Shown here: positions 16,533-63,913 of the stretch, piece by piece
How the letters are laid out: each line of letters starts with the position of its first letter
Position numbering within the stretch: the stretch's first letter is position 1
From: Phoenix dactylifera
Taxonomy: Eukaryota > Streptophyta > Magnoliopsida > Arecales > Arecaceae
Direction: 5' to 3'
Length of the DNA stretch: 64,000 bases
Assembly: GCF_009389715.1 (NCBI RefSeq)
Contig: NC_052404.1
Span: 6,470,745-6,534,744, forward strand
Notes under the pieces: model-generated
The model's input: the letters and a program-made list of their open reading frames with translations, nothing else
What the model was told of the DNA's origin: nothing
Database searches by the model: none
Position numbers and translations under genes: made by a program

Positions 16533-17694
16533 GAAACAGATAATGTAGCACATAACTTTCATGGGGCACCAAAGATGCATGCATGTCCATGATGGAATTG
16601 GAGGATGCCAGAATTTTTGACAACATGGACATGCACTTCAGAATATAATCTCGGCCTAGCTTAAGGCCTGTGTGGTTTGCATTACAAAGACTGAAGAATG
16701 AAGTTATCATTCATGGAGGAGAATTTTTTTTCTATTCTTCTCAACATGATGCTCTATGCCCCGCATGGGGACCAATCAACAAAGTTGGGCTGGGCTGAAA
16801 TCTAAACTCTGTGCCCATGGTTTATTTTTTCGGTTTATTCGTCACCTGCACTCACCACAAATTTCCCATGGTTCAGTTTGTCATAGACTTGCATGGGATC
16901 CCAGTCTTCAGGCCTGGGCTTTTTCTCCACAGTGTTGCTTTTAAGCTAGAATCTTTTTGTTAAAAAAAAAACTCAAAACTAGGGTGATCGGGCCCACAGA
17001 CAACCAACCAAGGCATAAAAGGCCCAACTTGGTGCCAAAATAATACTGAGATGACATTTGGCAAACATATGTATAATTGGATCAGTTTAGGACCACAAAC
17101 ACAATAGCACACTCAGTTTGGACCGCTGTACTTGTCATTTATACTAATTCTGTACATAGTTAATCTCATTTATAATGATTTGGATTCTTGAGTTATGTTT
17201 TTGGTAGGTTTAAGCCTACATACACACACGTACATTTACGAATTGGCATCACTTGACCTAAAGCTCTAAAAATTAGAGTCTAAACTAACCATGGCTAGTC
17301 TTAGGCGAATGTGGCCAATTAATAACCCTATGAATCAAATTGAGCAAGTTCCATAAGTTGATGATATGTAAAGTCATAACAATGAACTGAGCATGCATAG
17401 AATCTCTAGAAGGTCAGTGCATTTTATATGTCTCATGATCCTATCATTGTCATGTAATCTTGAGACATCAGTGGTTGGATTCCTCGTATTTATACATTCG
17501 ACATTCCCATTCCATATGGATCACACTGTGGTCCTTCTGGTCACTGTAGTAGTTTCACTAGTTCTTCTAGATATAGACATTATGACCTTTAAAATTAGCT
17601 AGGAGCATCTAAATTAGGTGCATGCATTCCTCTCTATGCTTTTTATTAAATGTTGTGAGGACATTGCCATAGTCAAGCAATAAGCTGTAAGCAT
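16533..17694. repeat. 1.16-kb direct repeat, copy A
   Basis: Matches 18349-19514 in the same orientation, from GAAACAGATAATGTAGCA to the region of AAGCAATAAGCTGT. By eye the copies differ at a few percent of positions plus one rearranged stretch near 17290-17330. The repeat has no coding capacity that I recognise. Its ends lack TG...CA, so the pair is not a set of LTRs. Confidence 0.85.
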
Positions 17695-18315
17695 TGATGG
17701 GGGGATCGTCCTGCTCACTACAGTAGGTTCACTCGATTTTGGCCGAATAGACCTCAGCACCGATTGAGCTGGGCCTCGGCTCCGCTAAGAATCAATTCGA
17801 GCTCCGACTTCGTCAAGAGCTCAGCCGACCTCAGACAGGCCCACTGCTACAACCTGCGTCAACCTTCTCTGATGCTCATAGCAAGGCATCCATAGACAAC
17901 GCTCTCCATAGACAACGTGCCCAGGGCGCTCCTATACTCACCAATGCACCCTGACCGAACTCGGGGTGCCTTATCCAATGATGTGCCCCGACCCCCGAGC
18001 TAGGGGTACTTTACCGAGCAAATCTCGGAATCAGGAACGCTAAGCTAACCTCAGTGCCTGTCAAGCCGAACTCACCAAGTATATGATACGATCGCTCAAC
18101 GAGCTCGGCCTCGCTCATGGCCACATCTACGAGTTTGCCCGCACCTGCCTACGTGGTCGTATATTGCAACGCCTCCGCGCCGTGCTTTGCTTGCTGGCCA
18201 ACGACAGCCAAGGACAACACCATGTTACCCCAGCCATATCCTGCTATAACTGTCAATACTCTATCGCTCATAAGATTGGACTGCACCGTGCGCCTCAAGT
18301 AATTTCTAGCTACGC
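17695..18315 (-). mobile_element. LTR fossil fragment (same family as 21721-22622)
   Basis: Reverse-oriented copy of the LTR-like fossil at 21721-22622. It starts with TGATGGGG, the reverse complement of that element's CCCCTCATCA end, and shares long stretches with it. The other end is missing, so it is a broken fragment lying between the two direct repeats. Family within LTR retrotransposons is not determined. Confidence 0.7.
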
Positions 18316-18348
18316 GCCATTTGGGTTAAAGTCATCCCCTCTCATGAT

Positions 18349-19514
18349 GAAACAGATAATGTAGCATATAACTTTCATGGGGCGCCAAAGATGCATGCAT
18401 GTCCATGGTGGAATTGGACGATGCCAAAATTTTTGACAACATGGACATGCACTTCAGAATATAATCTCGACCTAGCTCAAGGCCTGTGTGGTTTGCATTA
18501 CAAAGACTGAAGAATGAAGTTATCAATCACGTAGGAGAATTTTTCTCTATTCTTCTCAACATGATGCTCTATGCCCTATTGCCCTGCATGGGGACCAATC
18601 AACAAAGTTGGGCTGGGCTGAAATCTAAACTCTATGCCCATGGTTTATTTTTTCGGTTTATTCGTCACCTGCACTCACCACAAATTTCGCATGGTTCAGT
18701 TTGTCATAGACTTGCATGGGATCCCAGTCTTCAGGCCTGGGTCTCCACAATGTTGCTTTTACGCTAGAATCTTTCTGTTAAAAAAAAAAAACTCCAAACT
18801 AGGGTGATCGGGCCCACAGACAACCTACCATGGCATAAAAGGCCCAACTTGGTGCCAAAATCATACTGAGATGACATTTGGCAAACATACGTATAATTGG
18901 ATCAGTTTAGGACCACAAACACAATAGCACACTCAGTTTGGACCACTGTACTTGTCATTTATACTAATTCTGTACACAGTTAATCTCATTTATAACGATT
19001 CGGATTCTTGAGTTATGTTTTTGGTAGGTTTAAGCCTACATACACAGACGTACATTTAGGAATTGGCATCACTTGACCTAAAGCCCTAAAAATTAGAGTC
19101 CAAACTAAGTTTCAATTAATAACTAAAGCCCTAAAAATTGATAACCCCATGAATCAAATTGAGCAAGTTCCATAAGTTGATGATATGTAAAGTCATAACA
19201 ATGAACTGAGCATGCATAGAATCTCTAGAAGGTCAGTGCATTTTATATGTCCCATGATCCTATCATTGTCATGTAATCTTGAGACATCAGTGGCTGGATT
19301 CCTCGTATTTATACATTCAACATTCCCATTCCACATGGATCTTACTGTGGTCCTTCTGGTCACTGTAGTAGTTTCACTGGTTCTTCTAGATATAGACATT
19401 ATGACCTTTAAAATTAGCTAGGAGCATCTAAATTAGTTGCATGAATTCCTCTCTATGCTTTTAATTAAATGTTGTGAGGACATTGCCATAGTCAAGCAAT
19501 AAGCTGTTAGTATT
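18349..19514. repeat. 1.16-kb direct repeat, copy B
   Basis: Partner of 16533-17694. It continues to the right into unrelated sequence, which may be the ancestral flank. Confidence 0.85.
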
Positions 19515-25175: not shown

Positions 25176-27944
25176 AATGAGAAAGAAAGAGGATGCGACG
25201 GTAAAGAGGATGCGATGGTCTTTCTTTGCACGCAGTCTCTACTGGCACGTAATTTTTTTTTATTTTTTTGAAGTTATGGAATTAACGGACTCTATTAATA
25301 GGAGAAGTTCTATTTCTATTTGATTACTGGGTTTCTCATTAAGATGGTCATAAGAAGAAATGAGGCAAAAAAGAAAAAGTCCCACCCTATACAAAATTAA
25401 CAACTATAGTTAGCTTTGTTATGAATAGTGTTAGGCATGTATTATGTGCTAGAGAAAGCATGAACAATTACAATTCTCATATTTAATATAAAAATATATA
25501 ATTAAATGAATATAGTGTTCTTAGCTGTTACATTTTCTTGCTCATCATAAAAAACTAAAGATTAGTTAAAGATGGGAGTTTATAAGGTTGAAGGGAGGAG
25601 AGATGCATGTGTGGGAGCCCATTACTTGCTAATGATCAACCACCCTTCATCTGTGGTTTGCCATTAGATGATAATTGTTGGCCTCGGAGTACTACTTGCG
25701 ATAAAGAGGATCATACTTTATAATCTTAAGTAAAACATACTATGATCCAGTCATTGTAGCAGTCATTGCAGCTGTCCACCTGTGAGCAAAATCTGAATTT
25801 AAATCTTTACATGTTTTTTTTCTCAACGTGTAATTCTAATAGATGGATGGTGCTCTCATTTTCATTCTTAAAAAGAGAAAGAAAAGATGTTTCCCCATTG
25901 CAATTGACCCCCAACATTTCACTATCATTTTTTAATAAATTGTATAAATTAATGCTTTATGATATGACAATTTAAACTCCATACTTTATTCAGAGCTGGC
26001 CATCTCACACAATCATAGGCTGTGCACCCTTTAGCGAACATGGAACACATTTATAATTCAAGCATAATATAGGGTATGTATTTACTAGTAAATGCGAAAG
26101 ATACTAAAGAATACGAAGGCACTTGCTAGTAAATGAGAAAGATAGCAAGGATACTAATATTCCGGAGGACCTCGCAAAACATTAGGCTATGACTTTGACA
26201 TAGATTATAGATGAATGAAAGAGTTTGGAGTGCTTGAAGATGTTGTGCAGAATGCGATCCAATTGTTGACGTCGCAAAAGAAGAACAGCCATTTTTTTTC
26301 ATGCAAAACAAACAACCCAAATCCTTCAATTCATCTGCTCCCTAAACCATTAGCCATTCTGGCCTTGGGCAAAGAACCAGGTTAAAGAACTTGCACAAAC
26401 ACAAACTTCAGGGACTCTAACCTAGGGTTATTTGGACACTGATAATATATAAAGTATCAGAGAACAATTTGATTGCCCATTGGTACAATCTTCCATGACC
26501 ATGAAGATAACTTTGTACCGACAACAGCAGCAATAATCAAATAACTGATAACAACTTACTATGGAACCGAAGAGGTTCTCGATGTCACCAACGAAACCAT
26601 ATGCCAAACCAACACAATTGCTAAAAGAGAAATCGGACTTACAAATGTATAACAGGAGAAGGAAACAACAAAGGCTACAGGAAATTTATACTATTCCTTC
26701 CAAGGGAAAAGGCTTAAGGAATTGGTCACGGTTCATTATTTAGCAAGAAAGACCAGCTGCAGCCTGACAGGGTGCCAAGAGTCACAGTTCAGAAAATTAC
26801 CTCACAAAAGTTTGGAAAGAATCAAGATAATCAAAAGTGTTAAGAACTACAAAAGTAAAGAATTTAAATATTTAATGTAATTAATGCACGCAAGAAGCAT
26901 GGGAGAATATTTCTAGAATAAATTGTTTATAATTTGAATGAAATACTAAGATCCACGAATAATTGAATATTCTAGTTGATTCACTTGCAAAGACATCGAT
27001 TTATGAATAGCTGACCATTTCCTGTTTAGTTCATATACTTCAATTATAAATTGGAGAATTCTTTATCAAATAAAAGAATCATAAATTTGAAATAATTCAA
27101 AAAATATAGTGACCATGACCAGATTAAGCTGAAACAACAATAACAATAGATGCCATCGACTATCAAGCACAGAACTGAAAACAACAGAACAAATGATATG
27201 CTTCATTTGTTTGTTCAATAGGCATCCTTTCCCACATGACAGCCTACAAATGTATGCTTTTCAGGAAGGCCATAATGAGATAAACCAAACCAACAATAAT
27301 TCTTATAGACCTCACAGAAATCACTCTTTTACTCATGCTAATACAGGATGCAAGAGATTGTAACCGGTGCTTATCGCATGTAACAAGATACTTTGAAATG
27401 GAGGTAACCTTCCCTTCACCGGCTTACCCTTTACATCGACAGGTAGGGAACTTGTCTGACCAGATCATCAAATAGCCATAGAAAGGGATAGCGTTTGATG
27501 TCTCCATCAGAAAACCCACTTCATCTGGAGCAGCAATGCCTCGACCACACAAGCAACTGGAATGACAAGACTCATACCAACATGAGAGGAGGACTCCCCA
27601 ATTGACCAACGACTTCCTCATCACCATAGCTGGGGCATTGTCCTTCTGCAACCTTTGGGACAGCGTCTACGTGCTTCGACCTACCTTCTTTCAGGCTATT
27701 TTCTTTTGTCTTTATTTCACATTTAATATTAGGAGATCTGTAGCATTTACAATTTTATGTTTTAAATTTATTACATGAATAGATTTCTTTTGTGCTAAAA
27801 TAGATTTCTTTTGATGCTAAATAATATACATATATATTATTCTTTTTAAGATTCTCTATCAATTGTAATTATAGTTTTACTTGCTTATTTAGGTGATATA
27901 TTGCTAACAATCCAAAGAAGTATTTGTTTATTTTTTTGTTAGTA
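25176..27944. other. Intergenic, no gene recognised
   Basis: AT-rich. Open frames at 26126-26329 (-), 26561-26743 (+) and 27424-27651 (-) resemble nothing I know. The last, with several Cys, could be a fragment of a gene or element but cannot be assigned. Confidence 0.35.
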
Positions 27945-28256
27945 ATATATAATTCATTAAATTATGACATATTAGATCTTAATTACAATAATTGTTTTGC
28001 TAGCACAAAATTAGTAATCAATTATTCTAATAAGATAATAAATTATTCTAATATATAATTTATTAAATTGACATATTAGATCTTAATTACAATAATTATT
28101 TTGCTAGCACAAAATTAGTAATCAATTATTCTAATAAGGTAATAAATTATTCTAATATATAATTTATTGAATTGACATATTAGATCTCAATTATAATAAT
28201 TCTTTTGTTAGCACAAAATTAGTAATCAATTATTTTAAAAAGATAATAATTTGCTT
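27945..28256. repeat. AT-rich tandem repeat, 104-bp unit, three copies
   Basis: The landmark GACATATTAGATCT starts at 27966, 28070 and 28174, giving an exact 104-base period. Each unit also carries TTGCTAGCACAAAATTAG or a close variant. The third unit has decayed most. Composition is extremely AT-rich. Confidence 0.9.
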
Positions 28257-39222: not shown

Positions 39223-40214
39223 TGAATCATTCTTTCGCGCGAAAGATACAACCCTGTCCCTGGGTCTTTTTGGGTGGGGTCCAGGTGCTTATCCTTGTGG
39301 TCAGATGGAAACTTAGCGGGAAAACGATTTGGATGCAAGTGAATGCCTTTTTAGCTTGCCATCTTCAGATAGTATGTTATAAAAGAAAGTGCTCTTGGTG
39401 TCGTTAGCAAGAGTATTATAAGCCATCAGTGTAGCGGCTAGTGGTGAGCTTAATGGCCCGGGTTACTTAAAATTTAATTAACTGTTGTTTGTGATTTGCA
39501 TTTTAATTGCATAATTATTTCTGTTTATGCTAGTCGAACCAAACACAAGGATCATCCGTGGTACTCACATGCCTCGCAAAGGAAATTAGGCTGCGGATTG
39601 ACTTGCAATTTTTATTGTTCCATCGGCTTTAGCAAAAAGCCAGTATGAAAACATATGGGCCGGGTCAGGGTTAGATTGGGTCAACCAAGCCCAAATTAGT
39701 CTGGTATGTGAAGTACGAAGTGCGCTGCATTTAGAGCCTGCCCAGTTTGTTTAGGTTGATTAAGACAAATAAAGTAGTTTTGGATGTGTTTGTTTGTATT
39801 TAGAGAGCCAAACTAATCAACCTATTTAGGCTGGTTACAAGTCCAATTAGTTAGCCGTCTTTATAGTCCATACCACGTTCAGTGTACCAAAAAGAATGAT
39901 ATATATATAATCAAGTGCACAAGGACAAAGTAAATGGCTGAGGCACTTGACCGGACGGCCATACTTTTTTCAATTTCTTTTATCTGAATTGGATGACATT
40001 GCGAAAAGGTTCACAAATGCAGCAAACACACTAAACCAGGTTGGTTTATTTATTTAATTGTCTATTTTAGAAAACCATGCAGAGACACTCAGTAGAAAAG
40101 GGAAGCATGGAAGCAACCATGGCAACCTCACATACGCTCATTCGAAACGCAAGCTCTTGATTATTATAGTTCTCACACCAGCAGGTATACGAACTCAAAC
40201 CCGAACTAACCACT

Positions 40215-41069
40215 TCAAGCATAGGCACCAGGGTTGGCCAGGAGGTAGGCCTCTGCAGCCTTGATAGTCCCGATCACTGCTTCCTTTCCCTTGGCAATCT
40301 CATCCTTGTTGTCAACTCCTGGTAATGGCTTATAGGTTGTCACCACCTTGCACACGCACCCTCCCTTGCTGGATTTCTCGAACTTGAAATGGGTTGAGGC
40401 CGACTCGATCTTCTTCCCGAGATCGCCGCCTTCGACAAGGCTGTGCTTGCACTCAAACTTGTCGAAGTCCACAAAGTCCAGGCGCTCCTTTACATAGCTA
40501 AATGGCATGGCTACAAATATGGGAACCACAAGGTTAGCACCAGCTCTAAGTCCATAAAAATTAGATATATATAAGGATTTGTTTGAATGATTGGGCTGAA
40601 AAAATTTTATTAGATTCGTGGATTAAGTCAGTACAATCAGCAAAATTATAGGATTACAAGCTGATCTAGACATATACTTAGAAATAGCTTTGGAGTGGGC
40701 AGGTTAGATTTCCATATCAAGAAAAAAAGATTTTAGCCTGTAAACATATGAATATAGGCTTGGTCCGGCTTGTAATCTTATGATTTTGCTTGCTGTATTG
40801 GTTCAATCCATGAATCCAAAAGGATTTTTAGCCCAATCACCAAAACAGAACTTAAGACTAGAAAATTTCAAAGTGTGAGCCATAATACCTGAGGTGAAGT
40901 TGATCTGTCTGACACTCCCAACACTACCATCACCATGGACACCAGCGGCACTTGCGACGATGTCAGGCAAGAGCTTAGCGGCCAGGTTGTGCCAGTCGAG
41001 GACCGCCTTGAACAACCTTGGAGCGGGCGCTTGGGACTCGACCTCGAGGTTCCAACATGGGGGACTCAT
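40215..41069 (-). CDS. PR-10 / Bet v 1 family protein, copy 1
   Basis: Two exons, 41069-40889 and 40510-40215, joined at a phase-1 GT-AG intron after codon 60, the conserved intron position of the family. They encode 158 residues. The START-like Bet v 1 fold is indicated by WNLEVES (strand 1), the glycine loop GDGSVG (46-51), VRQINFTSAMPFSYVKERLD, and the C-terminal helix AEAYLLANPGAYA. PR-10 proteins are small cytosolic ligand-binding proteins induced by pathogens or stress; some bind flavonoids or cytokinins, and RNase activity is reported for some. The ATG at 41069 starts at MSPPCWNLEVES; an upstream in-frame ATG at 41099 would add ten unusual residues. This copy has Ser in MPFSYVKE, where the others have Gly. 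Confidence 0.95.
40588..40839. mobile_element. Fold-back (MITE-like) element in PR-10 copy 1 intron
   Basis: Imperfect inverted arms of about 75 bases, from TGATTGGGCTGAAAAA to AGCCCAATCA, fill most of the intron. Both arms contain GATTACAAGC-type and CAAAAT-type blocks in mirror order. It has no coding capacity. Target duplication is unclear, so class is open. Confidence 0.7.
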
Positions 41070-41162
41070 GGTTAAATTGGATTCTTTATTGGGCTTCACT
41101 TCTTTCTGCTAAGTTGTGGTGAGCGAAATCCAGATGGAGAATGGCGAGCAAAGGATGGGGGT

Positions 41163-41168
41163 TTTATA
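41163..41168 (-). promoter_or_regulatory. TATA box, PR-10 copy 1
   Basis: Minus-strand CTCTATAAAAC, with TATAAA beginning 99 bases before the ATG. The same box and spacing recur in all four copies. Confidence 0.75.
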
Positions 41169-42224
41169 GAGGGTTTGTGTGGAATGGTAGGTATGGAACG
41201 AAGAAGCATGCGTGCTGGTTTTTTCAAATTTGGGCAGCGCCTTTGCTAAACTGCTGACTAATAAAAATAGAGGAAAGAATGCGGGGGAGAGGTAGCTAGG
41301 TGCTCACGTCGAGGTGAGACTTTTTTTTTTTTTTTGGTGAGACTTGGGGAACGTTTTTTTTTCCATTGGCGGATCCCAGCTAAAACGATCATGAGCGCTC
41401 TAACTGTTGATATATGCCCTGCTTCGCAGTTTATGATTTCAAATTTTAATATTAAAAGAATATATGAAAAACTAACATTTTTAGTGTTCGTCTAATAAAA
41501 ATATCATTTTTTAGGTGAGACAGACTTAATTATTTGGAGATTATTTAGATTATAATAAATTGTTATATTGCCCAATAACCCATCTGTTATCTTTTTCTAC
41601 GTTATATTGCTATAATAACAGAGTAAAGTAGGGGCCAAAAAGCATTATAAATTTATAATAACCATTCTTCTTTTTTTATAATAACCAATACGCGAGCCGT
41701 GGTCATAATGAGCATGTGGCAACCCATGTCTATAATAACATTTCTCAAACCCATTTACTAAGTGAATTGAGTTCAAATTTAGACTTTGACACCTTTAACT
41801 TATTTTGTTCTATTTAATAATTAGATCAAATATAACTTGACATATTTAATTTATTTAATCTATTTAATCTGATCTGCTTAACTTGTTTTTATTATATTTA
41901 ACTCGATATGGAAGTCTATCTAAATTTAATTAATTTATTAAAAATTTATTTCACTTGTTTAATAGATGAGTTATATGGATCAGGTCGGATTATCTATTTA
42001 ATAAATATATCAAATTTAGATTGATGGTTTTTTTGACTCAATTCGTATTCAATCTGATCTATATTCGATCTGATCCAATTGTGACCTGTACTCTGCTCAG
42101 ACAAGGACTTTTTATCTATATAAAAATTTAGTTTGGGTATGTGGCCAGAGCTCTAGCTGGGCATCTTGGCCTGCAAGAGGATGCGTTTAGCCCAGCCCAA
42201 AACGAAGAGGCTTGCTTTCTTTCT

Positions 42225-42468: not shown

Positions 42469-42660
42469 CGGGTTTGCGAGGAAAGATCCGAGTTGGCATG
42501 GGCTTTGACCCACTTGGGAGCCTGGTCGACTCAGTGGAGGAGCTGGGGACAACTGGGTCGGCTGGGTTGCAGGCCAGCCCAGAGATCCAAATAGTTGATG
42601 CGGGCTCGAGCCAATCAAACAAAAGGCCCAGGAGCCCAGCGCCACACCCTGCGTTGGGTC

Positions 42661-43853
42661 TAGGGCTGGAAGTGGGCCGGGCCGGGCCGGGCCATACTCC
42701 TACCCGAGCCCGGCCCGAAATTATTTTTCGGGCTTCGGGCCGGGCCGAGGCCCGAACAGTTTTACAGAAACTCAGCCCGAGCCCGGCCCGAGCCCGATTG
42801 GGCCAGCCTGATCACGAGCCCGGCCAGAGATGTTCGCGTCCGGAGCAAGCTCCCGAAGCCACAAATCTCTGTGCACCAACATGAAGGCGTGGATGCGATC
42901 TGATCATTCCCATGTAGGCCGGACTGCGCCCTCACCTCTCGGCAGAGGAGCCGAGCTCCAGCTCATGCTCGGTGTCATCGGCGCCGGCGCGCCTCTCGTC
43001 TTGTTCCCCATCTAAACCCATAAATTCGCCCTCAGTCACCACCTCAAGGAGGATCCGATGGTAGGTCTTCTTCCTTTACTTAAAGGCATAAAGCCGCTGT
43101 TCTAATTTTTATCTACTTCCAGCAACTCAAATGGTAAAGAGGGGCAATCCCTGACTCCCATTCACATAAAAAAAAAAAGAAAAAAAACTTTATTTCTTAT
43201 TCTTCTTCTCTCTCTTTTTCTTGTTTTCCCCCCCGAATAAATGGCAGGAAGCATCAATGGCAGAATACATAATACAACAATACATCGCGACGTCAGGCGG
43301 CGAGCAAGCATTAAACTCGGTGAGTAGTATGTACACCATGGGGAAGGTAAGGATGACGGCGACGGAATTCCGAGCAGGCAATGGCAATAACGCCAGCCAT
43401 GCCAACAAGAAGGCGAGCAAGGGTGGTGGTGGAGGGGAGATGGGAGGGTTCGTGCTGTGGCAGAAGAAGCCGGACTTGTGGTGTCTTGAACTGGTGGTGG
43501 CCGGATGCAAGATCAGCGCTGGGAGTGACGGCAAGGTGGCATGGAGGCAGACAGCATGGCTTCGCCTCTGTGCCTCTGCAAATCCCTCGGGCAAGTTGGC
43601 AACTGGGTTTAGCCGCGATTCGGCAGACTGCAGACACAACTGGGTTTAGCCACGATACGGGCTGGAAGTGGGCTCGGGCTTGGACGGGCCCGAGCTGGGC
43701 CAATGAAATACCCGAGCCCGGCCCGAAATAGAAATGGGCTTAATCATTCAGCCCGAGCCCGGCCCGAAATGCATTGAGCCTAGCCCATAGCCCGGCCCGC
43801 GGGCGGCCCGACCCGATGGGCTTCGGGCCGGCCCGAGCCCACTTCCAGCCCTA
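42661..43853. mobile_element. Pack-type hAT element carrying a host gene fragment
   Basis: A 1193-bp element with terminal inverted repeats TAGGGCTGGAAGTGGGC (perfect over 17 bases, then more GC-rich similarity). It is flanked by the perfect 8-bp duplication GTTGGGTC (42653-42660 and 43854-43861), the hAT signature. Subterminal regions are packed with CCCGGCCCG / GCCCGAGCCC motifs. No transposase is present. The centre (about 42830-43620) holds part of a DUF620-family gene including an intron. Its insertion into LINE ORF1 dates it after the LINE. Confidence 0.92.
42830..43620 (+). pseudogene. Captured DUF620-family gene fragment inside the hAT element
   Basis: Two exon pieces surround a 187-base GT-AG intron (43061-43247). 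Exon 1 has a weaker match (LQLMLGVIGA, then HKFALSHHLKEDPM). Exon 2 reads EASMAEYIIQQYIATSGGEQ, ALNSVSSMYTMGKVRMTATE, GGFVLWQKKPDLWCLELVVA and GSDGKVAWRQTAW. These are hallmark blocks of the plant DUF620 proteins, whose function is unknown. After about 43570 the similarity fades. An in-frame stop in exon 1 and missing N- and C-terminal parts make it a fragment. The intron shows capture from genomic DNA. Confidence 0.85.
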
Positions 43854-43861
43854 GTTGGGTC

Positions 43862-44390: not shown

Positions 44391-47300
44391 GTCAGGGCCC
44401 ACTTATCAAGGTAGTGCGTTATGAAGATTCTAGTATCGAACTGAGGGGGGCGGCCAAGCCTTCCTTCATGACTTCATTTAGGAGATCAAATCAGGTGAAT
44501 GACTCGGAGATCTGCTTTCTATGTGAGACGTGATTATTTGGAGATGGTCTCTGTCGAGTGCAGCATCGCCTGGCAGCTGATCCTAGGGACTATTTTGGGG
44601 CATCTTGGGGTTGTGGAAGAGGGGGATAGCCACTATGGATGTTTTCCATAACTACTTACAGCAGGTTGTAATAGTTATTTCAGAACCTAATGAAGCTCCG
44701 TGGGTATTATGTGGTGTGTATGCCAATACTGACTACAGAGTTAGGAGAGTTCTCTGGAATGAGATCACCAACCTGATTTCCTAGGGCATTCCGACAGTGG
44801 TGGTGGGTGACTTCAATTGTATCCAGGGGCTCAGTGAGAAACAGAGAGGCAGGGCTTACACCGACTCAGTGGACAGGAGGGAGTTTCGGAATTTCTTGTC
44901 GAAGAATGAACTGGTGGACCTCAGATTCTCTGGGTCGAGATTCACTTGGTGCAACAACCAGTCCAGCCGATAGATAGGGTCGTGCATCTCCATGCTGGGT
45001 TCTCTGCTTCCCTACCTACCAAGTCAGTAACTTACCTCGGATAGCTTCGAATCATTGTCTTCTTTTGATTTCTACAGAATCTTGCTCCAGTCACGACATC
45101 TCATTCCGCTTTGAGAAAGTGCGGCTGTCATATCTCCAGTCTTAGAACATTGTTCGGGAGGCTTGAGAGGTGCTAGTGCGGGGTGATGCTATGCAGAGGG
45201 TTTCGCGTAGGCTGGGGCTCACTAAGCGATGACTCTGTTGGTGGAACCGAGAGGTAGTTCTTCAGGAGATTGGAGGAGGCTGAGATTTCGATTGCTGATC
45301 TTCAGGGGAGAGAGGATATGGGTGGAGAGCTCTGGGAGGCCGACATGGTAGTCATACAACAGCAACTTGCTACACATCACTCCCTCTTGCAGCAGCAGGA
45401 GCTCTTCTAGAGACAGAAATCTAGAATTCTGGGTCAAGGAGAAGGACTGGAACACCAGATTCTTCCACCAGACGATTATTATCAAAAGGCAGAGAAATAC
45501 GATCCACTCTATGGAGTCAAGTCATGGCGGCTAGATACGGCAAAGTGCGGACTAATGGGGCGGCCCCGAGTAGAGGAGAAGACACTACATGTGGCGGGAG
45601 ATTTGCAAGTACATGCCTACTGCCTTGGTGAATACCAAATGGCTGATCGGCGATGGGCAGAGCATGGATGTTGTGGACGACCCATGGGTAGTCTCTCTTC
45701 CTTTGAGACTGTCGCGACCATGGTCAACGTCGAGGCTACGGATGGACTCTAGTTTTGCGATCTTCTTAACTCAGAGGGGGTGGAGTGGAATGTCGGCAGG
45801 ATCTATCGGTTATTTGGAGAGCACCTTGTAGAGCGTGTTTGATTGCTCCCGATTTCGAGGTGTGCTGATGTGAGGGTTTGGAGCACGTCCTGTAGAGCCA
45901 GTGTCAGGTGGGAGATGTCTTCCGCATCCTCCAGCAAGAGCACAAGCCTTGGATGGATTATGCTTAGATCTGGAGCATCCGACTTCATCCGAAGGTAGCA
46001 TTATTTCTATAGAAGGTGGCTTAGGAGCGCCTGTCGACGAGATTGGGGCTAAGCAAAAGGGGACTGGGCATTCATCCCCAGTGTCCGAATTGCTGAGTGG
46101 ACGAGACGGTGGATCATGTTCTGCTCTAGTGTGTGTGGGCTAGGGGGTCAGAGGCTCGTCGAGATCCCACACGATGCCTAGAGTCGGATGGGGTCTTTCC
46201 TACAGGCAGTTTATTGGTGGTCCAACGGCTCCGAGATGCGTCGGGTGGCTGTTGCAGCGATCTACACAGCTTACTAGATCTAGTTGGTAAGGAATGCTCA
46301 GACTTTTGGTGAGAATAGTTCGTCCTCAAGGTTCCACGTGGAGCGCGCTCGGGTACAAGTAGCAGAGATCATTAATGCAAGCTTAGCTTATGGGTCTTTG
46401 ATAGCTCAGGACAGTTGGAGCCCTCATTTTGCTCAAGTAGAGCCTTGTATGGTGTTCTTCACTTGGGAGCGCCCACCTCCAAGCTTCCTTAAGGTCAACT
46501 TCGATGGATCCATGCGAGACGGTGGCAGAAGAGGAGGTGATGGGTTTGTCATTAGGGGCTCGAACTCTAGGATAGTGGCTGCCAAATCTTCGATACCTCA
46601 GTCATTGGAGCAAAGCTGCGGCTGAATTGGGCTAGCTTGTGCCGTGCTCGGCGTGTGCTATAGGCCAGCTCGATTACATTACAGGATGACTCGGGCATCG
46701 TGATCAGTTGGATCCAAGGTGGCCCGAGTGGTGGTAGAGGGAGACACCCTCTTCTTCGAGATATTTAGACTTTGGTGAGTGACGTTGTGGCCTTTCAGGT
46801 TAGGCATGTGTTTAAAAAGGTTAATGAGGCTGCGGACTGGGTGACTTCTTATGTGACTTGTCACTCCGGGGGTATCCTGTGGGCTGGAAAGGGGGAGTTG
46901 CTCAGAGTACTCCAAGATTTATTATTTTTTGATTTTATTGGGTATATCCATACTCGAACGGTATGAACGCCGCTTTAGCGCAAAAAAAAAAAAAAGAAAA
47001 TACAACGTTGTTGCTGGGTCCTTTTGTGTGGGGTCCAGGTGCTTATCCTTGTGGTCGGATGTAAACTTAGCGGGAAAAAGGTTTGGATGCGAGTGAATGC
47101 CTTTTTAGATACATAACCTTGTTATCTTCAGATGGTATGTTATATAAGAATGTGCTAGTGGTGTCGTTAGCAAGAGTTATTATAAGCCATCAGTGTAAGC
47201 TAGTGTTGAGCTTAATGGGCCTGGATACTTAAAATTTAATTAACGGTTCTCTGTGATTTGCATTTTAATTGCATAATTGTTTCTGTTGCTAGTCGATCCA

Positions 47301-47954
47301 AAGACAAGAATCATCCGTGGTACTCACATACCTCGCAAAGGAAATTAGGATTTGTTTCATTAGCTTTAGCAAAAACCCAGAACGAAACATATGGGCCGGG
47401 TCAGGATTAGATTGGGTCAAGCAAGCCCAAATTAGTCTGGTGTGTGCAGTACAAAGTGCGCTGCATTTGGAGCCTACCCAGTTTGATTAGGTTGATTAAG
47501 ATAAATAAAGTAGTTTTGAATGTCTTTATTTGTATTTAGACAGCCAAACTAATCAACCTATTTAGGTTGGTTACAAGTCCAATTAGTTAGCGGTCTTTAT
47601 AGTCCATACCACGTTCACTGTGCCAAAAAGAATGATATATATGTATATATATAAAATCATGTCCATAAGGAGAAAGTAAAAGGCTGAGGGACTTGCCCGA
47701 ACGGCCATACTTTTTTCAATTTCTTTTCTGAATTGGATGACATTGCGAAAAGGTTCACAAATGCAGCAAACACACTAAACCAGGTTGGTTTATTTATTTA
47801 ATTGTCTATTTTAGAAAACCATGCAGAGACACTCAGTAGAAAAGGAAAGCATGGAAGCAACCATGGCAACCTCACATACGCTCACTCGAAACGCAAGCTC
47901 TTGATTATTATAGTTCTCACACCAGCAGGTATACGAACTCAAACCCGAACCACT

Positions 47955-48803
47955 TCAAGCATAGGCACCAGGGTTGGCCAGGAGGTAGGCCTCTGCAGCC
48001 TTGATAGTCCCCCCGATCACTGCTTCCTTTCCCTTGGCAATCTCATCCTTGTTGTCAACTCCTGGTAATGGCTTATAGGTTGTCACCACCTTGCACACGC
48101 ACCCTCCCTTGCTGGATTTCTCGAACTTGAAATGGGTTGAGGCCGACTCGATCTTCTTCCCGAGATCGCCGCCTTCGACAAGGCTGTGCTTGCACTCAAG
48201 CTTGTTGAAGTCCACAAAGTCCAGGCGCTCCTTTACATAGCCAAATGGCATGGCTACAAATATTAGAACCACAAGGTTAGCACAAACTCTAAGTACATGA
48301 AAATTATATATATATATAAAGGTTTGTTTGGGTAATTGGGCTGAAAAAATTATATTAAATTTGTGAATTGAGCCTGTACAACTAACTGGTCTAGACCTAT
48401 ATTCATAAGTACTTACAAATAGCTTTGGAGTGGGCCGGCTAGATTTTCAAATTAAGACAAAAAGATCTTAGCCTATAAACTTGTGAATATCGGCTTAGTT
48501 CGGCCTATAATCCTATGATTTTGATGGCTGTACTGGCTCAATCTATGAATCCAAAAGGATTTTTAGCCCAATCATCGAAATAGAATCTAAACTAGAAAAT
48601 TTCAAAGTATGGGTCATAATACCTGAGGTAAAGTTGATCTGTCGGACACTCCCGATGCTACCATCACCATGGACACCGGCGGCGCTTGCGACGATGTCAG
48701 GCAGGAGCTTAGCGGCCAAGTTGTGCCAGTCAAGGACCGCCTTGAACAACCTTGGAGCGGGCGCTTGGGACTCGACCTCGAGGTTCCAACACGGGGGACT
48801 CAT
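47955..48803 (-). CDS. PR-10 / Bet v 1 family protein, copy 2
   Basis: Exons 48803-48623 and 48253-47955, with the same phase-1 intron position, encode 159 residues. It differs from copy 1 by an extra Gly (EAVIGGTIKA, a 3-base insertion), Ile in GDGSIG, Gly in MPFGYVKE and FNKLE in place of FDKFE. All Bet v 1 landmarks are intact and no disabling change is seen. The TATA box and spacing are conserved. It is probably expressed, but this cannot be judged from sequence. Confidence 0.94.
48334..48574. mobile_element. Fold-back element in PR-10 copy 2 intron
   Basis: Same inverted-arm element as in the copy 1 intron, from TAATTGGGCTGAAAAA to AGCCCAATCA, with small internal deletions. Confidence 0.65.
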
Positions 48804-48895
48804 GGTTAAATTGGATTCTTTATTGGGCTTCACTTCTTATGCTAAGTTGTGGTGAGTGAAATCCAGATGGAGAATGGCGAGCAAAGGTTGGGGGT

Positions 48896-48901
48896 TTTAT
48901 A
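48896..48901 (-). promoter_or_regulatory. TATA box, PR-10 copy 2
   Basis: TATAAA on the minus strand, 98 bases before the ATG, in the same context as copy 1. Confidence 0.75.
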
Positions 48902-49341
48902 GAGGGTTTGTGTGGAATGGTAGGTATGGAACGGAGAAGCATGCGTGCTGGTTTATTCATATTTGGGCAGCGCCGTTGCTGAAACTGCTGACTAATAAAA
49001 ATAGAGGAGGAAAGAGTGCAGGGGAGAGAGGCGGGCAGGTGGCTCACATCAAGGTGAGACCTCGGGGAACCGTTTTTTTACATTCTGACGGATCCCAGCT
49101 AAAACAGATCGCTATAACCGTTGATACATGCCCTGCTTCGCAGTTTATGATTTCAATTTTTAATATTAAAATAATATATGAAAAACTAACCCTTTTAGTG
49201 TTCGTCCAATAAAAGTAACATTTTTCAGGTGAGACAAACTTAATTATTTGGAGATTATTTAGATTATAATAAACTGTTTTATTGCCCAATAACCCACCCA
49301 TTATCTTTTTCTGCATTATATTGTTATAGTCACAGAGTAAA

Positions 49342-49611
49342 GTAAGAGCGGTGATTACCATCCGCTGCTGAGAGATGTTTCCGGATCGTAATTTGTGGTG
49401 GGATGGTACTCTAAACTAAGTACGTATTTAGAGAGGTCAATGATGTTGCAGATTGGGTGACCTTTTTTTGTTGCCGACCACTCGAAAGACCACCTTTGGG
49501 TAGAAAAGGCAGCGTTGCCCAGTGCACTCCATGATGTACTATTTTTTGGTTTACTTGGTTGTATCTGTACACGTTATATGTGATATTCCGACTTTTAGCA
49601 AAAAAAAAAAA
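49342..49611 (+). mobile_element. LINE 3'-end fragment in array unit 2
   Basis: A plus-strand insertion ending in a poly(A) tail (49600-49611). It interrupts the AGAGTAAAGTAGGGGCC... sequence that is continuous in units 1, 3 and 4. The inserted sequence resembles the RNase H tail of the local LINE family (a DWVT-like segment followed by a TATCTGTACACG-type 3' UTR). It is absent from the other units, so it arrived after the duplication. Confidence 0.7.
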
Positions 49612-51300: not shown

Positions 51301-52766
51301 CTTTTTTTTTTCTGCTTAAAACGGGTTCTTCAGACAACGCGTGTCCGAATACATCCAAGAACATCAAAATACAAAATCTCACGTAGTGCCAATGGCAGCT
51401 CTCACTCTCCTGCCCACAGGGCGTATCCCGAGTGGTGTGCTGCATATGCAGCTATCCAGTCAGCCGCCCCGTTGGCCTCCCTAAATACATGCTTAGCCTC
51501 AAAGGCCGCACCATCCTTCACCATCATCCTAATATCCCGAATCAAAGGATGGCCAGTGCTCTCACGCCGAATCCACCCAATGACAGTGGATGAGTCGCCC
51601 TCCAAGATGATCGAGCTAGCCCGCAGTACCTGCCGCGCATGGCGAAGGCCGGCCCAGGCAGCTCGCAACTCCGCCTCTGCCCTCTGGAACTGATATGTCG
51701 AAGAGCCGGCAACCGCCCGCTGCCACTACCCTAGAGTGAGGGTTTCGTATGACGAAGCCTGCGCCGCCTCGTGTACCACTATCTAGTACTGAACCATCAA
51801 AGTTAACCTTGAAGAAACTCGGGGGTGGGGGCTCCCAGGTGAAGAACACCGTCCGAAGAGCTGCCTGAGTAGAGAAAGAACTCCAGGTGTCCCGAGCTAT
51901 CAAGGCCGTATCTGAAGGGCTGGTAGGTCTGGAATCCATCGCCAGTACTCGAGCAGACTCCGCAACAAACCTCGGCGACATTCTACGCTCACCGAAGGTG
52001 CGAGCGTTCCTTGCCAGCCAGATCTGATGGGCAGTGCAAGTTGCTTGGATGGACTCCTGACATGTCCGAGGACTGGCCAGCCACTATCATATCATATGTA
52101 GAAAAAGTCTCCTCTCCCGCCACACCTTCTCTGGGATACCCGTCCACTGCCATGTCAACCTCGCCCAAGTACATCCAAATAGTACATGGTCCACTGACTC
52201 GTCTGCACCGCAAGCCCCACACTCCGCAGGGATCCCCAAACCACGTCGGCTCAGCACTGCTCTCGTCGGGAGACGGTTCCACATCACCTTCCATAAAAGA
52301 GTGCTGCTCTCGGGTGGAGCCTGGACCTCCAAATCCAAGCACAGTCCCATCCACTCTCATGCTCTCACTGAATCACCCGGGCCAGGTCACCCAGCCTAAC
52401 ACTGGCCCTGCATGAAGTGCTCCAAACCCTGACATCTGGGCCCTCGCATCCTGGTACTAGAAGAGAAAGGATCCTCTTGGCTAGATGTGCCCCGAACAAC
52501 TGATGTAGTCTGTCCTCGTCCCACTCTGCCCTCCCTGGTGCTAGGAGGTCGCACATCCGGACCCCACTGCTGCCTCAAAATCCACCGTCGTCGGCCAATA
52601 TCTCAAAGGAATGGTATCCACTCATGGATCATCAGTCACAACAATGGTCCGGCCATCGCCCATCAGCCACCTGGTATTAGCTAACACGGTCGGCAGGTAC
52701 CTCCCAATCTCGCGCCACATGAAAGAGATACGGCGACCACACCGTGCCACCTCAGGGCTCCCTCTT
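51301..52766 (-). mobile_element. LINE fragment, minus strand (RNase H plus zf-RVT)
   Basis: It lies inside a T run of array-unit sequence that is uninterrupted at 59700-59720. The minus strand encodes a well-preserved RNase H domain (FKVNFDGSVLDSGTRGGAGF, then ILEGDSSTVIGWI, AFEAKHVFREANGAADWIAA) and upstream zf-RVT sequence (GDPCGVWGLRCRRV region). Reverse transcriptase and endonuclease are absent. It is a different insertion from 50264-51117. Confidence 0.82.
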
Positions 52767-56449: not shown

Positions 56450-56668
56450 GTGAGGGAAAGACTGAAGAGCGGATCTTGGTCCCATGCAGGCTATGGTAGT
56501 TCCGTGCTTGAGATGCCGAAAATAGCCCTGAGAGGGATATAGTGGGAAGGAAATTAAGATTTCGCCGCTGATATGTTTTTGTTTTGTTTTTTTTTTTTTT
56601 GCTTTAAAAAGAGAGCATAGTTGGTGGATAAAATTAGAAGAAGCCGGATAGCTTGGAGATGGCGGGAC
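56450..56668 (+). pseudogene. J-domain gene 3' fragment in array unit 3
   Basis: Aligns with intron 4 and the start of exon 5 of the J-domain gene (GGTAGTTCCGTGCTT, GAAATTAAGATTTCG, AGAAGAAGCCGGATAGC). Most of exon 5 is deleted: GCTTGGAG joins directly to GATGGCGGGAC and then to array sequence. It shares with the 42225-42468 copy an extra GCGGATCTTGG-like stretch missing from the intact gene. Confidence 0.85.
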
Positions 56669-57640
56669 AAGGTGCTTATCCTTGTGGTCAGATGGAAACT
56701 TAGCGGGAAAACGATTCGGATGCAAGTCAATGCCTTTTTAGCTGGCTATCTTGAGATAATATGTTGTAAAAGAAAGTGTTAGTGGTGTCGTTAGCAAGAA
56801 TATTAGAAGCCCTCAGGGTAGGCTAGTGGTGAGTTTAATGGCCCTGCTTACTTCAAATTTAATTAATGGTTGTTTGTGATTTGCATTTTAATTGCATAAT
56901 TATTTCTGTTTATGCTAGTCGAACCAAAGACAAGAATAATCCGTGGTACTCACGCCTCGGAAAGGAAATTAGGTTGCGGACTGACTTGCAATTTTTATTG
57001 TTCCATTGGCTTTAGCAAAAAACCAGAGCGAAAACATATGGGCCGGGTCAGGGTTAGATTGGGTCAACCAAGCCCAGCTTAGTCTGGTGTGTGAAGTACA
57101 AAGTGCGCTGCGTTTAGAGCCTACCCAGTTTGATTAGGTTGATTAAGATAAATAAAGTAGTTGTGGATGTGTTTATTTGTATTTAGACAGCCAAATAAAG
57201 AAGTTTTGGATGTGTTTGTTTGTATTTAGAGAGCCAAACTAATCAACCTATTTAGGCTGGTTACAAGTCCAATTAGTTAGCCGTCTTTATAGTCCATACC
57301 ACGTTCAGTGTACCAAAAAGAATGATATATATATAATCAAGTCCACAAGGACAAAGTAAATGGCTGAGGCACTTGACCGGACGGCCATACTTTTTTCAAT
57401 TTCTTTTATCTGAATTGGATGACATCGTGAAAAGGTTCACAAATGCAGCAAACACACTAAACCAGGTTGGTTTATTTATTTAATTGTCTATTTTAGAAAA
57501 CCATGCAGAGACACTCAGTAGAAAAGGGAAGCATTGAAGCAACCATTGCAACCTCACAAACACTCACTCCAAACGCAAGCTCTTGATTATTATAGTTCTC
57601 ACACCAGCAGGTATACGAACTCAAACCCGAACTAACCACT

Positions 57641-58468
57641 TCAAGCATAGGCACCAGGGTTGGCCAGGAGGTAGGCCTCTGCAGCCTTGATAATCCCGAT
57701 CACTGCTTCCTTTCCCTTGGCTATCTCATCCTTGTTGTCAACTCCTGGTAATGGCTTATAGGTTGTCACCACCTTGCACACGCACCCTCCCTTGCTGGAT
57801 TTCTCGAACTTGAAATGGGTTGAGGCTGACTCGATCTTCTTCCCAAGATCGCCTCCTTCCACCAGGCTGTGCTTGCACTCAAACTTATCGAAGTCCACAA
57901 AGTCGAGGCGCTCCTTTACATAGCCAAATGGCATCGCTACAAATATTAGAGCCACAAGGTTAGCACCAACTCTAAGTACATGAAAATTATATATATAAGA
58001 GCTTGTTTGGATGATTAGGCTGAAAAAATTCTATTAAATGTATGGATTGAGCCAGTACAACTAGCTGGTCCAGGCCCATATTCATAAGTACTTAGGAATA
58101 GCTAGAGTGGGCCGGTTAGATTTTCATATTAAGAAAAAAGATCTTAGCTAATATAGGCTTAGACCAGCCTGTAATCTTATGATTTTGCTGGCTATGCTGG
58201 CTCAATCTATAAATCCAAAAAAAAATTTAACCCAATCATCAAAACAGAACCGAAGACTAGATAACTTCAGAGCATGGGCCACAATACCTGAGGTAAAGTT
58301 GATCTGCCTGACACTCCCGACGCTACCATCACCATGGACACCGGCGGCGCTTACGATGATATCAGGCAGGAGCTTAGCGGCCAAGTTGTGCCAGTCGAGG
58401 ACCGCCTTGAACAACCTTGGAGCGGGAGCTTGGGACTCGACCTCGAGGTTCCAACACGGGAGACTCAT
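57641..58468 (-). CDS. PR-10 / Bet v 1 family protein, copy 3
   Basis: Exons 58468-58288 and 57936-57641 encode 158 residues. Distinguishing residues are Leu3 (MSLPCW), PDIIVSAAG and EAVIGIIKAAEAY. The split codon is GCG rather than GCC. The glycine loop GDGSVG, the intron phase and the C-terminal helix are intact. Copies 3 and 4 share MSLPCW and PDIIVS, so they are the closest pair in exon 1. Confidence 0.94.
58012..58238. mobile_element. Fold-back element in PR-10 copy 3 intron
   Basis: Same inverted-arm element as in the other introns, shortened. Confidence 0.6.
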
Positions 58469-58560
58469 GGTTAAATTGGATTCTTTATTGGGCTTCACTT
58501 CTTCTGCTAAGTTGTGGTGAGTGAATTCCAGATGGAGAATGGCGAGCAAAGGTTGGGGGT

Positions 58561-58566
58561 TTTATA
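58561..58566 (-). promoter_or_regulatory. TATA box, PR-10 copy 3
   Basis: TATAAA on the minus strand, 98 bases before the ATG. Confidence 0.75.
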
Positions 58567-59722
58567 GAGGGTTTGTGTGGAATGGTAGGTATGGAACGAA
58601 GAAGCATGCGTGCTCGTCTATTCAAATTTGGGCAGCGCCGTTGCTAGAACTGCTGTCTAATAAAAAGAGAGGAGGACAGAGTGCAGGAGAGAGAGGTAGG
58701 TAGGTTGCTTACATGAAGGTGAGACTTCGGGGAACGTTTTTCGTCCATTCTGACGGATCCCAGCCAAAACAGACGTGAGCGCCATTATTGTTGATATATG
58801 CCCTGATTCGCAGTTTATGATTTCAAATTTTTAATATTAAAATAATATATGAAAAACCAACCTTTACTGTTCATCTAATAAAAATATCATTTTTCAGGTG
58901 AGACAAACTTAATTATTTGGAGATTATTTAGATTATAATAAATTGTTTTATTGCCCAATAATCCATCTGTTATCTTTTTCTACGCTATATTGCCATAATA
59001 ACAGAGTAAAGTAGGAGCCAAAAAACATTATAAATTTATAATAACCATTCTCTCTCTCTCTCTTTTTTTTTTTATAATAACTAACATGCGGGCCGTCATC
59101 ATAATAGGCACGTGGCAACCCAGGTTTGTAATAAAGATCAACCTGCCAGGCCTATTTGGTAAATAAATTGAGTTTAAATTTAAACTCAGTATACTTAATC
59201 TATTAAAAAATTATTTAATTGGCTTTGACTTGTTTAATAAATGGGCTATATAGCCAGATCAGGCCATCTATTTAATAAATAAATCAAATTTAAATAGATA
59301 AAATTTTAATTTAATCGATATTCGCCACCTCTTTTTTATTGGAATAAAAAAAATTTATTTATAAAAAGAATTTATTTTTTTATTTGCTATTTTTTAGAGG
59401 TTTTGCCTAATTTAAACATCGAAAGGCCCTTCCCGTCGGATCGGCTTTGGCAACCTTCGAGCGGGTTTTTTTTTTATTTTTTCCTGCTGCAAGGTGACAG
59501 GCACAAATGGGACCCCACGTCTTTCAAAGTGTCATATCGGGTTTTGACGGTAACAGCTTTGATTTATTATTATTGTACGAGAAAACTTTGTCATCGTCAA
59601 AGAAATTTGCAAGAAGGGGACTCGATCAGCTCTGCAGGCAGTACATGTCACAGCAAATCCAGCATATAAACTTTAACACGTGTTTGTATCTGACATGAAA
59701 TTTAGTGTTTTTTTTTTTTGGT

Positions 59723-60446: not shown

Positions 60447-61519
60447 TCATACATGTGGCGGCCCCGAGTGGACAAAGATGCTCCTATATGCGGTGGAAGA
60501 TTTGCAGGTACATGCCTACTGTCTTGGTGAATAATAGATGGCTGATCAGCGATGGGCAGAACGTGAATGTGGTAGAGGATTTGTGGGTGGACTCTCTTCC
60601 TTTGAGACTCTGGACGACCATGGTCAACGTCGAGACAGTGGACAGGGTCCGTGATCTTCTTAGTCCAGAGGGGGCGGAGTGGGATGTCTGCAGGATCGAT
60701 CAGTTATTTGGAGAGCACTCTGTAGAGCGTGCTCGATCGCTCCCGATTCCCAGGTGTGCTGATGGAAGGGTTTGGAGCACGTCCTACAGAGCTAATGTCA
60801 GTGTGGGAGATGTTTTTCGCACCCTCCAGCGGGAGCACAAACTTTGGATGGTTGTGCTTGGATCTGGAGCTTTAGACTCTATCTAAGAGTAGCATTATTT
60901 CTGTGAAAGATGGCCTCGAGCATCCGCCGACAAGATTGGTGCTGAGCAGAAGGGGGCTGGGCTTTCATCCCCAGTGTCCGGATTGCCGAGTGAATGAGAC
61001 GGTGGTGGACGATGCGCTAGATCATGTTCTATTCCAGTGTGTGTAGGCTAAGGGGTTTGGGTTTGTCATTAGGAGCCCGAACTCTAGAATAGTGACTGCT
61101 GGTGGCTATCGGATCTTCAATATCTCAGTTTCTAGAGCAAAGCTGTGGGCGGCTTGGGCCGGTCTGAGTCATGCTCGCGCGTGCTACAGACCAGCTCGGT
61201 ATATTAGAGTGTGACTCGACCACTGTAATCAGCTGGATCTAGGGTGGCCTGAGTCGCGGTAGAGGAGGACACCATCTGCTTCGAGATATTTGGACTATGG
61301 TGAGTAACGTTGTGGCCTTTTCAGCTGGGCATATGTTTAGAGAGGCTAATGGGGCCGCGGACTGGGTGGCTTCTTATGTGGCCTATCACTCTAGGGGTAC
61401 TCTGTAGGCTGGGGAGGAGGAGCTGCTGAGAGCACTCTAAGACTTGTTATTTTTTTATTTTATTGGGTGTATCCGTACTCGTACGGTACGAAATGCCGCT
61501 TTAGGTGGAAAAAAAAAAA
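60447..61519 (+). mobile_element. LINE fragment sharing the unit 2 insertion junction
   Basis: Corresponds to 45560-46997 of the large LINE: zf-RVT (VNNRWLISDGQNVNVVEDLW), then RNase H (AGHMFREANGAADWVA), then a poly(A) tail near 61509-61521. About 390 bases present in the unit 2 LINE (46145-46538) are missing here. The tail is followed by AAAATACAACCTTGTCCC, the same target junction as at 47001. Both therefore descend from one insertion. Confidence 0.85.
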
Positions 61520-62504
61520 AAAGGAGAAAAATACAACCTTGTCCCTCGTCCTTTTGTGTGGGTCGAGGTGCTTATCCTTGTGGTCAAATGTAAACTTAGC
61601 GGGAAAACGATTTGGATGCGAGTGAATGCCTTTTTAGATACCAAGTTTGTTATCTTCAGATGGTATGTTATATAAGAAAGTGCTAGTGGTGACGTTAGCA
61701 AGAGTATTATAAGCCACCAGCGTAGGCTAGTGGGGATCTTAATGGCCCTGGTTACTTCAAATTTAATTAACGGTTGTTTGTGATTTGCATTTTAATTGCA
61801 TAATTATTTCTGTTTATGCTAGTCGAACCAAACACAAGGATCATCCGTGGTACTCACATGCCTCGCAAAGGAAATTAGGCTGCGGATTGACTTGCAATTT
61901 TTATTGTTCCATCGGCTTTAGCAAAAAGCCAGTATGAAAACATATGGGCCGGGTCAGGGTTAGATTGGGTCAACCAAGCCCAAATTAGTCTGGTATGTGA
62001 AGCACGAAGTGCGCTGCATTTAGAGCCTTCCCAGTTTGATTAGGTTGATTAAGACAAATAAAGTAGTTTTGGATGTGTTTATTTGTATTTAGACAGCCAA
62101 ACTAATCAACCTATTTAGGTTGGTTACAAGTCCAATTAGTTAGCCGTCTTTATAGTCCATACCACGTTCACTGTGCCAAAAAGAATGATATATATGTAAT
62201 ATATAAAATCATGTCCATAAGGAGAAAGTAAAAGGCTGAGGCACTTGACCGAACGGCCATACTTTTTTCAATTTCTTTTCTGAGTTGGATGACATTGTGA
62301 AAAGGTTCACAAATGCAGCAAACACACTAAACCAGGTTGGTTTATTTATTTAATTGTCTATTTTAGAAAACCATGCAGAGACACTCAGTAGAAAAGGGAA
62401 GCATGGAAGCAACCATGGCAACCTCAAACGCTCACTACAAACGCAAGCTCTTGATTATTATAGTTCTCACACCAGCAGGTATACGAACTCAAACCCGAAC
62501 CACT

Positions 62505-63338
62505 TCAAGCATAGGCACCAGGGTTGGCCAGGAGGTAGGTCTCTGCAGCCTTGATAGTCCCGATCACTGCTTCCTTTCCCTTGGCTATCTCATCCTTGTT
62601 GTCAACTCCTGGTAATGGCTTATAAGTTGTCACCACCTTGCACACGCACCCTCCCTTGCTGGATTTCTCGAACTTGAAATGGGTTGAGGCCGACTCGATC
62701 TTCTTCCCGAGATCGCCGCCTTCGACCAGGCTGTGCTTGCACTCAAACTTGTCGAAGTCCACAAAGTCCAGACGCTCCTTTACATAGCCAAATGGCATCG
62801 CTACAAATATTAGAGCCACAAGGTTAGCACCAACTCTAAGTACATGAAAATTATATATATATATATATATAAAAGGGTTTGTTTGGGTGATTTGGCTGAA
62901 AAAATTCTATTGAATTTGTAGATTGAGCCTGTATATTTATAAGTACTTAGAAATAGCTTTGGAGTGGGCCAGCTGGATTTTCAGATTAAGACAAAAAAAT
63001 CTTAGCCTATAAATTTATGAATATAGGCTTAGTTCGGCCTATAATCTTATAATTTTGCTGCCTGTACTGGCTCAATCTATGAATTCAAAAAAAATTTTAG
63101 CCCCATCATCGAAACAGAATCTAAAACTAGAAAATTTCAAAGTATGGGTCATAATACCCGAGGTAAAGTTGATCTGTCTGACACTCCCGACGCTACCATC
63201 ACCATGGACACCGGCGGCGCTTACGATAATGTCAGGCAGGAGCTTAGCGGCCAAGTTGTGCCAGTCGAGGACCGCCTTGAACAACCTTGGAGCGGGCGCT
63301 TGGGACTCGACCTCGAGGTTCCAACACGGGAGACTCAT
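62505..63338 (-). CDS. PR-10 / Bet v 1 family protein, copy 4
   Basis: Exons 63338-63158 and 62800-62505 encode 158 residues. It has MSLPCW and PDIIVS like copy 3, GTIKAAETY near the C terminus (Thr where the others have Ala), and a TCG rather than TCA serine codon just before the intron. Reading frame, splice sites, glycine loop and C-terminal helix are intact. Confidence 0.94.
62888..63108. mobile_element. Fold-back element in PR-10 copy 4 intron
   Basis: Same inverted-arm element, shortened by deletions. A (TA)n run (about 62852-62870) lies beside it. Confidence 0.6.
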
Positions 63339-63430
63339 GGTTAAATTGGATTCTATATTGGGCTTCACTTCTTCTGCTAAGTTGTGGTGAGTGAAATCCA
63401 GATGGAGAATGGCGAGCAAAGGTTGGGGGT

Positions 63431-63436
63431 TTTATA
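63431..63436 (-). promoter_or_regulatory. TATA box, PR-10 copy 4
   Basis: TATAAA on the minus strand, 98 bases before the ATG. Confidence 0.75.
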
Positions 63437-63913
63437 GAGGGTTTGTGTGGAATGGTAGGTTTGGAACGAAGAAGCATGCGTGCTGGTTTATTCACATTTG
63501 GGCAGCGCCGTTGCCAAAACTGCTGACAAATAAAAATAGACGAGGAAAGAATGCGGGGGAGAGGTACGTAGGTGCTCGCATCAAGATGAGACTTCGGGGA
63601 ACGTTTTTTTTCCATTCTGACGGGTCCAGCTAAAACAGTCATGAGCGCTATAACTGTTGATATATGCCCTGCTTCGCAGTTTATGATTTCAAATTTTTAA
63701 TATTAAAACAATATAGGAAAAACCAACCCTTTGAGTGTTCGTCTAATAAAAATATCATTTTTCAGGTGAGACAAACTTAATTATTTGGAGATTATTTAGA
63801 TTATAATAAACTGTTATATTGCCCAATAACCCATCTGTTATCTTTTTCCCCGGTGTATTACTATAATAACATAGTAATGTAGGGGCTAAAAAGCATTATA
63901 AATTTATAATAAT

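Follow-up and report, generated by a model that had tools for sequence, protein, structure and literature searches.

The 1193-bp segment at positions 42661 to 43853 of the window (the whole 64-kb stretch of DNA analyzed here) is probably a non-autonomous hAT-type composite, or Pack-hAT, in which two miniature elements surround a piece of a DUF620 gene and which was moved as a whole by its outer ends (Table 1). A preliminary description of this DNA had presented the segment as a Pack-hAT with a captured, intron-containing DUF620 fragment, and it is still best read as a hAT-like, non-autonomous element with an intron-containing gene fragment inside; beyond that description, the present analysis reveals an in-frame TAA stop codon, an additional, third terminal repeat, the loss of some two thirds of the DUF620 domain, and a probable composite anatomy. 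The outer ends, the target site duplication, the third repeat copy, the foldback structure of the right unit (R), the DUF620 match and the in-frame stop are all read directly from the sequence.

Table 1. Features of the composite element and of the repeated units around it (positions in the window)
Feature	Position	Strand	Remarks
Target site duplication, left copy GTTGGGTC	42653..42660	.	8 bp
Left outer terminal inverted repeat TAGGGCTGGAAGTGGGC	42661..42677	+	17 bp
Left unit L, miniature-element sequence	42661..42830	+	170 bp; inner border approximate; G+C-rich
Upstream exon piece	42831..43060	+	5' border approximate
In-frame TAA stop, upstream exon	43013..43015	+	
Predicted intron	43061..43247	+	187 bp; GT...AG; phase 0
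Downstream exon piece, start of DUF620 domain	43248..43592	+	PF04788; right border somewhere in about 43559-43592
Junction sequence between gene piece and R	43593..43656	+	holds most of the 24-bp direct duplication
Inner third terminal-repeat copy	43657..43673	+	15/17 bases; two outermost bases changed
Right unit R, foldback miniature element	43657..43853	+	197 bp; own inverted repeats 43659-43679 / 43831-43851
Right outer terminal inverted repeat	43837..43853	-	17 bp
Target site duplication, right copy GTTGGGTC	43854..43861	.	8 bp
Four tandemly repeated units	39241-41785, 46541-49349, 56664-59186, 61058-63912		pairwise matches 87-89% identical

The outer terminal inverted repeats match each other at 17 of 17 positions, and GTTGGGTC adjoins both ends of the element with 8 of 8 bases identical, an 8-bp target site duplication of the kind by which hAT insertions are recognized; the perfection of both features, claimed previously, is thus borne out. 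The whole window was scanned for inverted repeats of at least 10 bp, 80 to 5000 bp apart, with an 8-bp repeat on either side that differed at no more than one position; once very simple repeats were excluded, this returned three pairs, two with a perfect duplication. The first is the element itself (17 bp, perfect duplication), the second an 11-bp pair that lies in a tandem array (28055-28150) and also has a perfect duplication, and the third a 10-bp pair with one mismatch in the duplication. Fifty dinucleotide shuffles gave a mean of 0.2 pairs, and a perfect duplication in none; with repeats of at least 8 bp, the scan yielded 17 rows in the window, a figure for the real sequence alone. A single duplication brackets the whole unit, which therefore inserted here as one piece, and the perfect ends and duplication suggest that the insertion may be recent. 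When the element is deleted in silico, stop-free frames of at least 100 residues cross the join (one on the plus and two on the minus strand, in a G+C-rich stretch), and the joined plus-strand reading of the emptied site has no Pfam match at E values up to 10. No empty homologue of the insertion site was found, and the right flank is without another match in the window until 45555.

As in Pack-TYPE elements generally, host gene sequence lies between the terminal repeats. The preliminary description had made its DUF620 claim depend on a profile search, and the exon-2 reading passes it, matching PF04788 (DUF620) with an E value of 2e-28 and 99.9 bits against a cut-off of 22.5. The match extends over residues 28 to 115 of that reading and profile positions 1 to 82 of 243, and about two thirds of the domain are absent from the captured piece. 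The frame starting at 43248 translates as EASMAEYIIQQYIATSGGEQALNS...GSDGKVAWRQTAW..., and of the three blocks named earlier as DUF620 hallmarks, LWQKKPDLWCLELVV and GSDGKVAWRQTAW fall inside the match, while YIATSGGEQALNS (residues 12-24) falls outside because the profile starts at residue 28. The score of the profile match is 93.3 bits when the reading is cut at 43559 and 99.2 bits when it is cut at 43592, which places the right border of the gene piece between these positions. The GT-AG intron pointed out earlier is also recovered as a prediction, 64% A+T, across which exon order and phase are preserved; its presence in the captured piece argues for capture at the DNA level.

The upstream exon piece reads ...NMKAWMRS...ELQLMLGVIGA..., a stop, and then THKFALSHHLKEDPM, with ...ELQLMLGVIGAGAPLVLFPI immediately before the stop. 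KAWMRS and LMLGVIGAPL are motifs that we take to be like the N-terminal part of DUF620 proteins, and this likeness, together with the continuity of the splice and not a profile match, is the ground for assigning the exon to that part. Taken alone, the portion ahead of the stop matches no Pfam family, since the Pfam model begins later in the protein. A chimeric frame is open from an ATG at 43058 through the predicted splice to a stop ending at 43649 and, as judged from sequence, might be expressed. The complete domain and open frame of a functional DUF620 gene are both wanting here; with about two thirds of the domain missing and an in-frame stop upstream, the captured piece is probably non-functional and most likely passenger sequence. 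In IMG/VR, no DUF620 relatives turned up in a protein-pattern search, and PDB sequences gave 0 matches at E values up to 10. Arabidopsis has nine DUF620 genes, BDR1 to BDR9, with BDR1 located at secondary-wall pit boundaries (PMC6349933); the captured piece belongs to the same family by PF04788 but, compared with the Arabidopsis proteins, retains no more than roughly the first third of the domain and carries the upstream stop.

Exon order and phase kept across the intron would also be expected of a native DUF620 remnant at this locus, with the terminal repeats contributed by separate insertions around it. We regard this as highly improbable: the perfect 8-bp duplication encloses the entire unit, an arrangement that none of 50 shuffles produced, the DUF620 match breaks off at profile position 82, and a search with both exon readings detected neither a parent gene nor any other DUF620 sequence in the 64-kb window.

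The composite structure is most apparent at the right of the gene piece, where the third copy of the terminal repeat faces as a left end, with its mismatches confined to the two outermost bases. Matches to the terminal repeat within three mismatches number three in the 64 kb against 0.17 expected, and none of 100 shuffles contained three. Because of this third copy, the segment from 43657 to 43853 looks like a separate foldback mini-element of its own: its inverted repeats are 21 bp long and perfect, compared with the 17-bp match between the left and right outer ends, and none of 200 shuffles folds as strongly (z -5.8). At the inner end of R, the adjoining 8 bp (GCCACGAT) differ from the outer duplication and are not repeated to the right of R, and R thus did not insert at this place alone.

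The left unit (L) is less complete. It is 68% G+C, and R is equally G+C-rich; the motif GAGCCCGGCC occurs three times in L, twice in R and nowhere else in the window, and L likewise folds better than shuffled sequence (z -6.4, with 0 of 200 shuffles as good). No inner terminal repeat is found in L within three mismatches. Direct alignment of L with R, ends included, has a score reached by 0 of 500 shuffles, whether of 2-, 3- or 4-mers; with the ends removed, the interiors score as well in 0, 2 and 37 of 500 shuffles (2-, 3- and 4-mer, respectively), and the interior likeness may therefore be one of shared motifs alone. The best stretch has 54 of 71 columns alike, 12 of the columns being gaps, and the tails of L and R align no better than chance (94 and 300 of 500 shuffles). 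On account of the tail alignment, L is not regarded as an almost complete copy of R, and an inverted alignment of the interiors was likewise unconvincing (14, 140 and 322 of 500 for 2-, 3- and 4-mer shuffles). Given this weak interior similarity and a tail at chance level, L may be one end of another or a longer element instead of an R-like element that was shortened. Other matches to L or R were not found in the 64-kb window.

The main rival to a composite origin is template switching during repair, in which a single hAT miniature element is broken or excised, gap filling switches template to the DUF620 gene and back, and the product, made up of an incomplete left copy, filler and the full element copied anew, later transposes to this site. 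The right capture junction bears on this possibility, as it contains a 24-bp direct duplication (43600-43623 and 43637-43660, 92% identical) that may be repair filler; its resemblance to templated filler argues a little for such a history, gap filling is favored for most single-copy animal Pack-TIRs in PMC8277862, and PMC3260210 mentions that errors of repair have been suggested as a cause. A single copying event from one template should, however, yield copies that are identical at the start, and L and R differ even though no mismatch is seen in the outer ends or the duplication. We therefore hold this account to be possible, though not probable.

Assembly in place is a further alternative, with a miniature element inserted first and the gene piece and the left end of a second element nested into it later. 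A single outer duplication would fit a first element alone too, and weak G+C-rich inverted pairs bracket the gene piece (42774-42796 with 43658-43680, 78%; 42771-42795 with 43670-43694, 72%), but these pairs are imperfect and built of common GCCCG motifs, the 8 bp that precede R do not reappear after it, and the repeat list holds no inner duplication that we noticed besides the 24-bp one at the right junction. Such nesting is accordingly unlikely.

Under the favored composite origin, two related miniature elements would at the start have flanked the DUF620 gene piece in the same orientation. The left element would then have lost its inner end and the right one would have had its inner end altered at two terminal bases, after which a hAT transposase supplied in trans could use just the two outermost ends, move the whole 1.2 kb, and paste it here with formation of the 8-bp duplication. 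The transposase family, the order of these events and the presence of two separate source elements are what we infer. What the sequence itself holds is an altered third repeat next to the captured DNA on one side and none in L on the other, i.e., inner ends mutated or deleted as in the model of Gisby and Catoni 2022 (PMC8903248), in which the outer ends come into use once the inner ends have been deleted or mutated. A more specific version, in which the element is a preserved intermediate predicted by this re-mobilization model and combines its two routes, with one inner end lost and the other disabled by two terminal bases at most, is rather doubtful.

The element is hAT-like by the length of its duplication and by its terminal repeats, which agree with the Ac repeat (C/TAGGGATGAAA, as given in PMC3260210) at 9 of 11 bases. 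The AAACGG subterminal repeats of the Ac/Ds family proper occur 0 times on both strands of the element, and there was no transposase match among 11 readings scanned, a small part of the readings of the window. In IMG/VR, the terminal repeat occurs in two contigs as a single match each, with no partner within three mismatches in the stretches scanned (9278 of 35168 bases of the contig in one case), and we estimate that both arose by chance, given a 17-mer and a collection of very large size. A literature search with the first 11 bases of the terminal repeat gave, among the matches listed, none about transposons by title.

Maize and rice hAT elements were surveyed for Pack-TYPE members in 2022, and maize Pack-hATs were analyzed (PMC8903248); like the present element, these are non-autonomous and carry host coding DNA within hAT-type ends, and their proposed origin is the use of the outer ends of neighboring related insertions. 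The present element differs from them in the relict inner end that can still be read in its single observed copy. The preliminary description held capture to be less often described for hAT elements, a fair statement given that the 2011 paper PMC3260210 calls it rare in this group. The same paper lists two Ds2 and nine Ds-l4 elements that contain fragments of genes, in some cases including introns, and the present element thus joins a known kind; Ds2-22, for one, carries two exons and their intron, and the palm element likewise contains a predicted intron. A compound of a complete unit, captured DNA and a truncated second unit was also reported in maize Ds there, namely Ds-l4-483, with a complete element, captured sequence, and a truncated second copy with a perfect terminal repeat at its end. 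The present element has the mirror order, with the complete unit on the right, and is far shorter (1193 versus 7344 bp). The complete first element of Ds-l4-483 is itself flanked by a duplication, whereas no duplication is found at the inner border here, and the present element further differs in being without AAACGG repeats and in sharing 9 of 11 bases with the Ac end.

The element sits between the first and the second of the four tandem units, which are about 2.4 to 2.8 kb each. Every unit holds a minus-strand reading like that at 47955-48446, and the latter, the only one from which the profile match comes, matches PF00407 (Bet v 1) with an E value of 5.5e-06. Gene families of this kind point to a plant as the host. 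Elsewhere in the window are a minus-strand reading of glycosyl transferase family 8 (3658-4953; PF01501, E value 6.6e-52), a direct duplication of ~1.2 kb (16530-17695 and 18346-19514, 93% identity), and a tandem array of a 104-bp A+T-rich unit (27943-28249; 2.9 copies, 93% matches). A diverged repeat in opposite orientations (45588-46993 and 51302-52721, 63% over 1450 columns) is perhaps the remnant of a non-LTR retrotransposon; a minus-strand reading within it (51619-52083) matches RVT_3, though weakly and below the cut-off (E value 0.055).

How cut-and-paste transposons acquire gene pieces is still argued. For hAT elements, the readable relict inner end favors the neighbor-fusion model over template switching, and the element is a concrete test object for that model; as a single example of an already described kind, it brings a modest gain. 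If one inner end was indeed lost and the other disabled by its terminal bases, the element could help to show which bases at the ends cause a hAT transposase to skip an inner end and carry off a gene piece.
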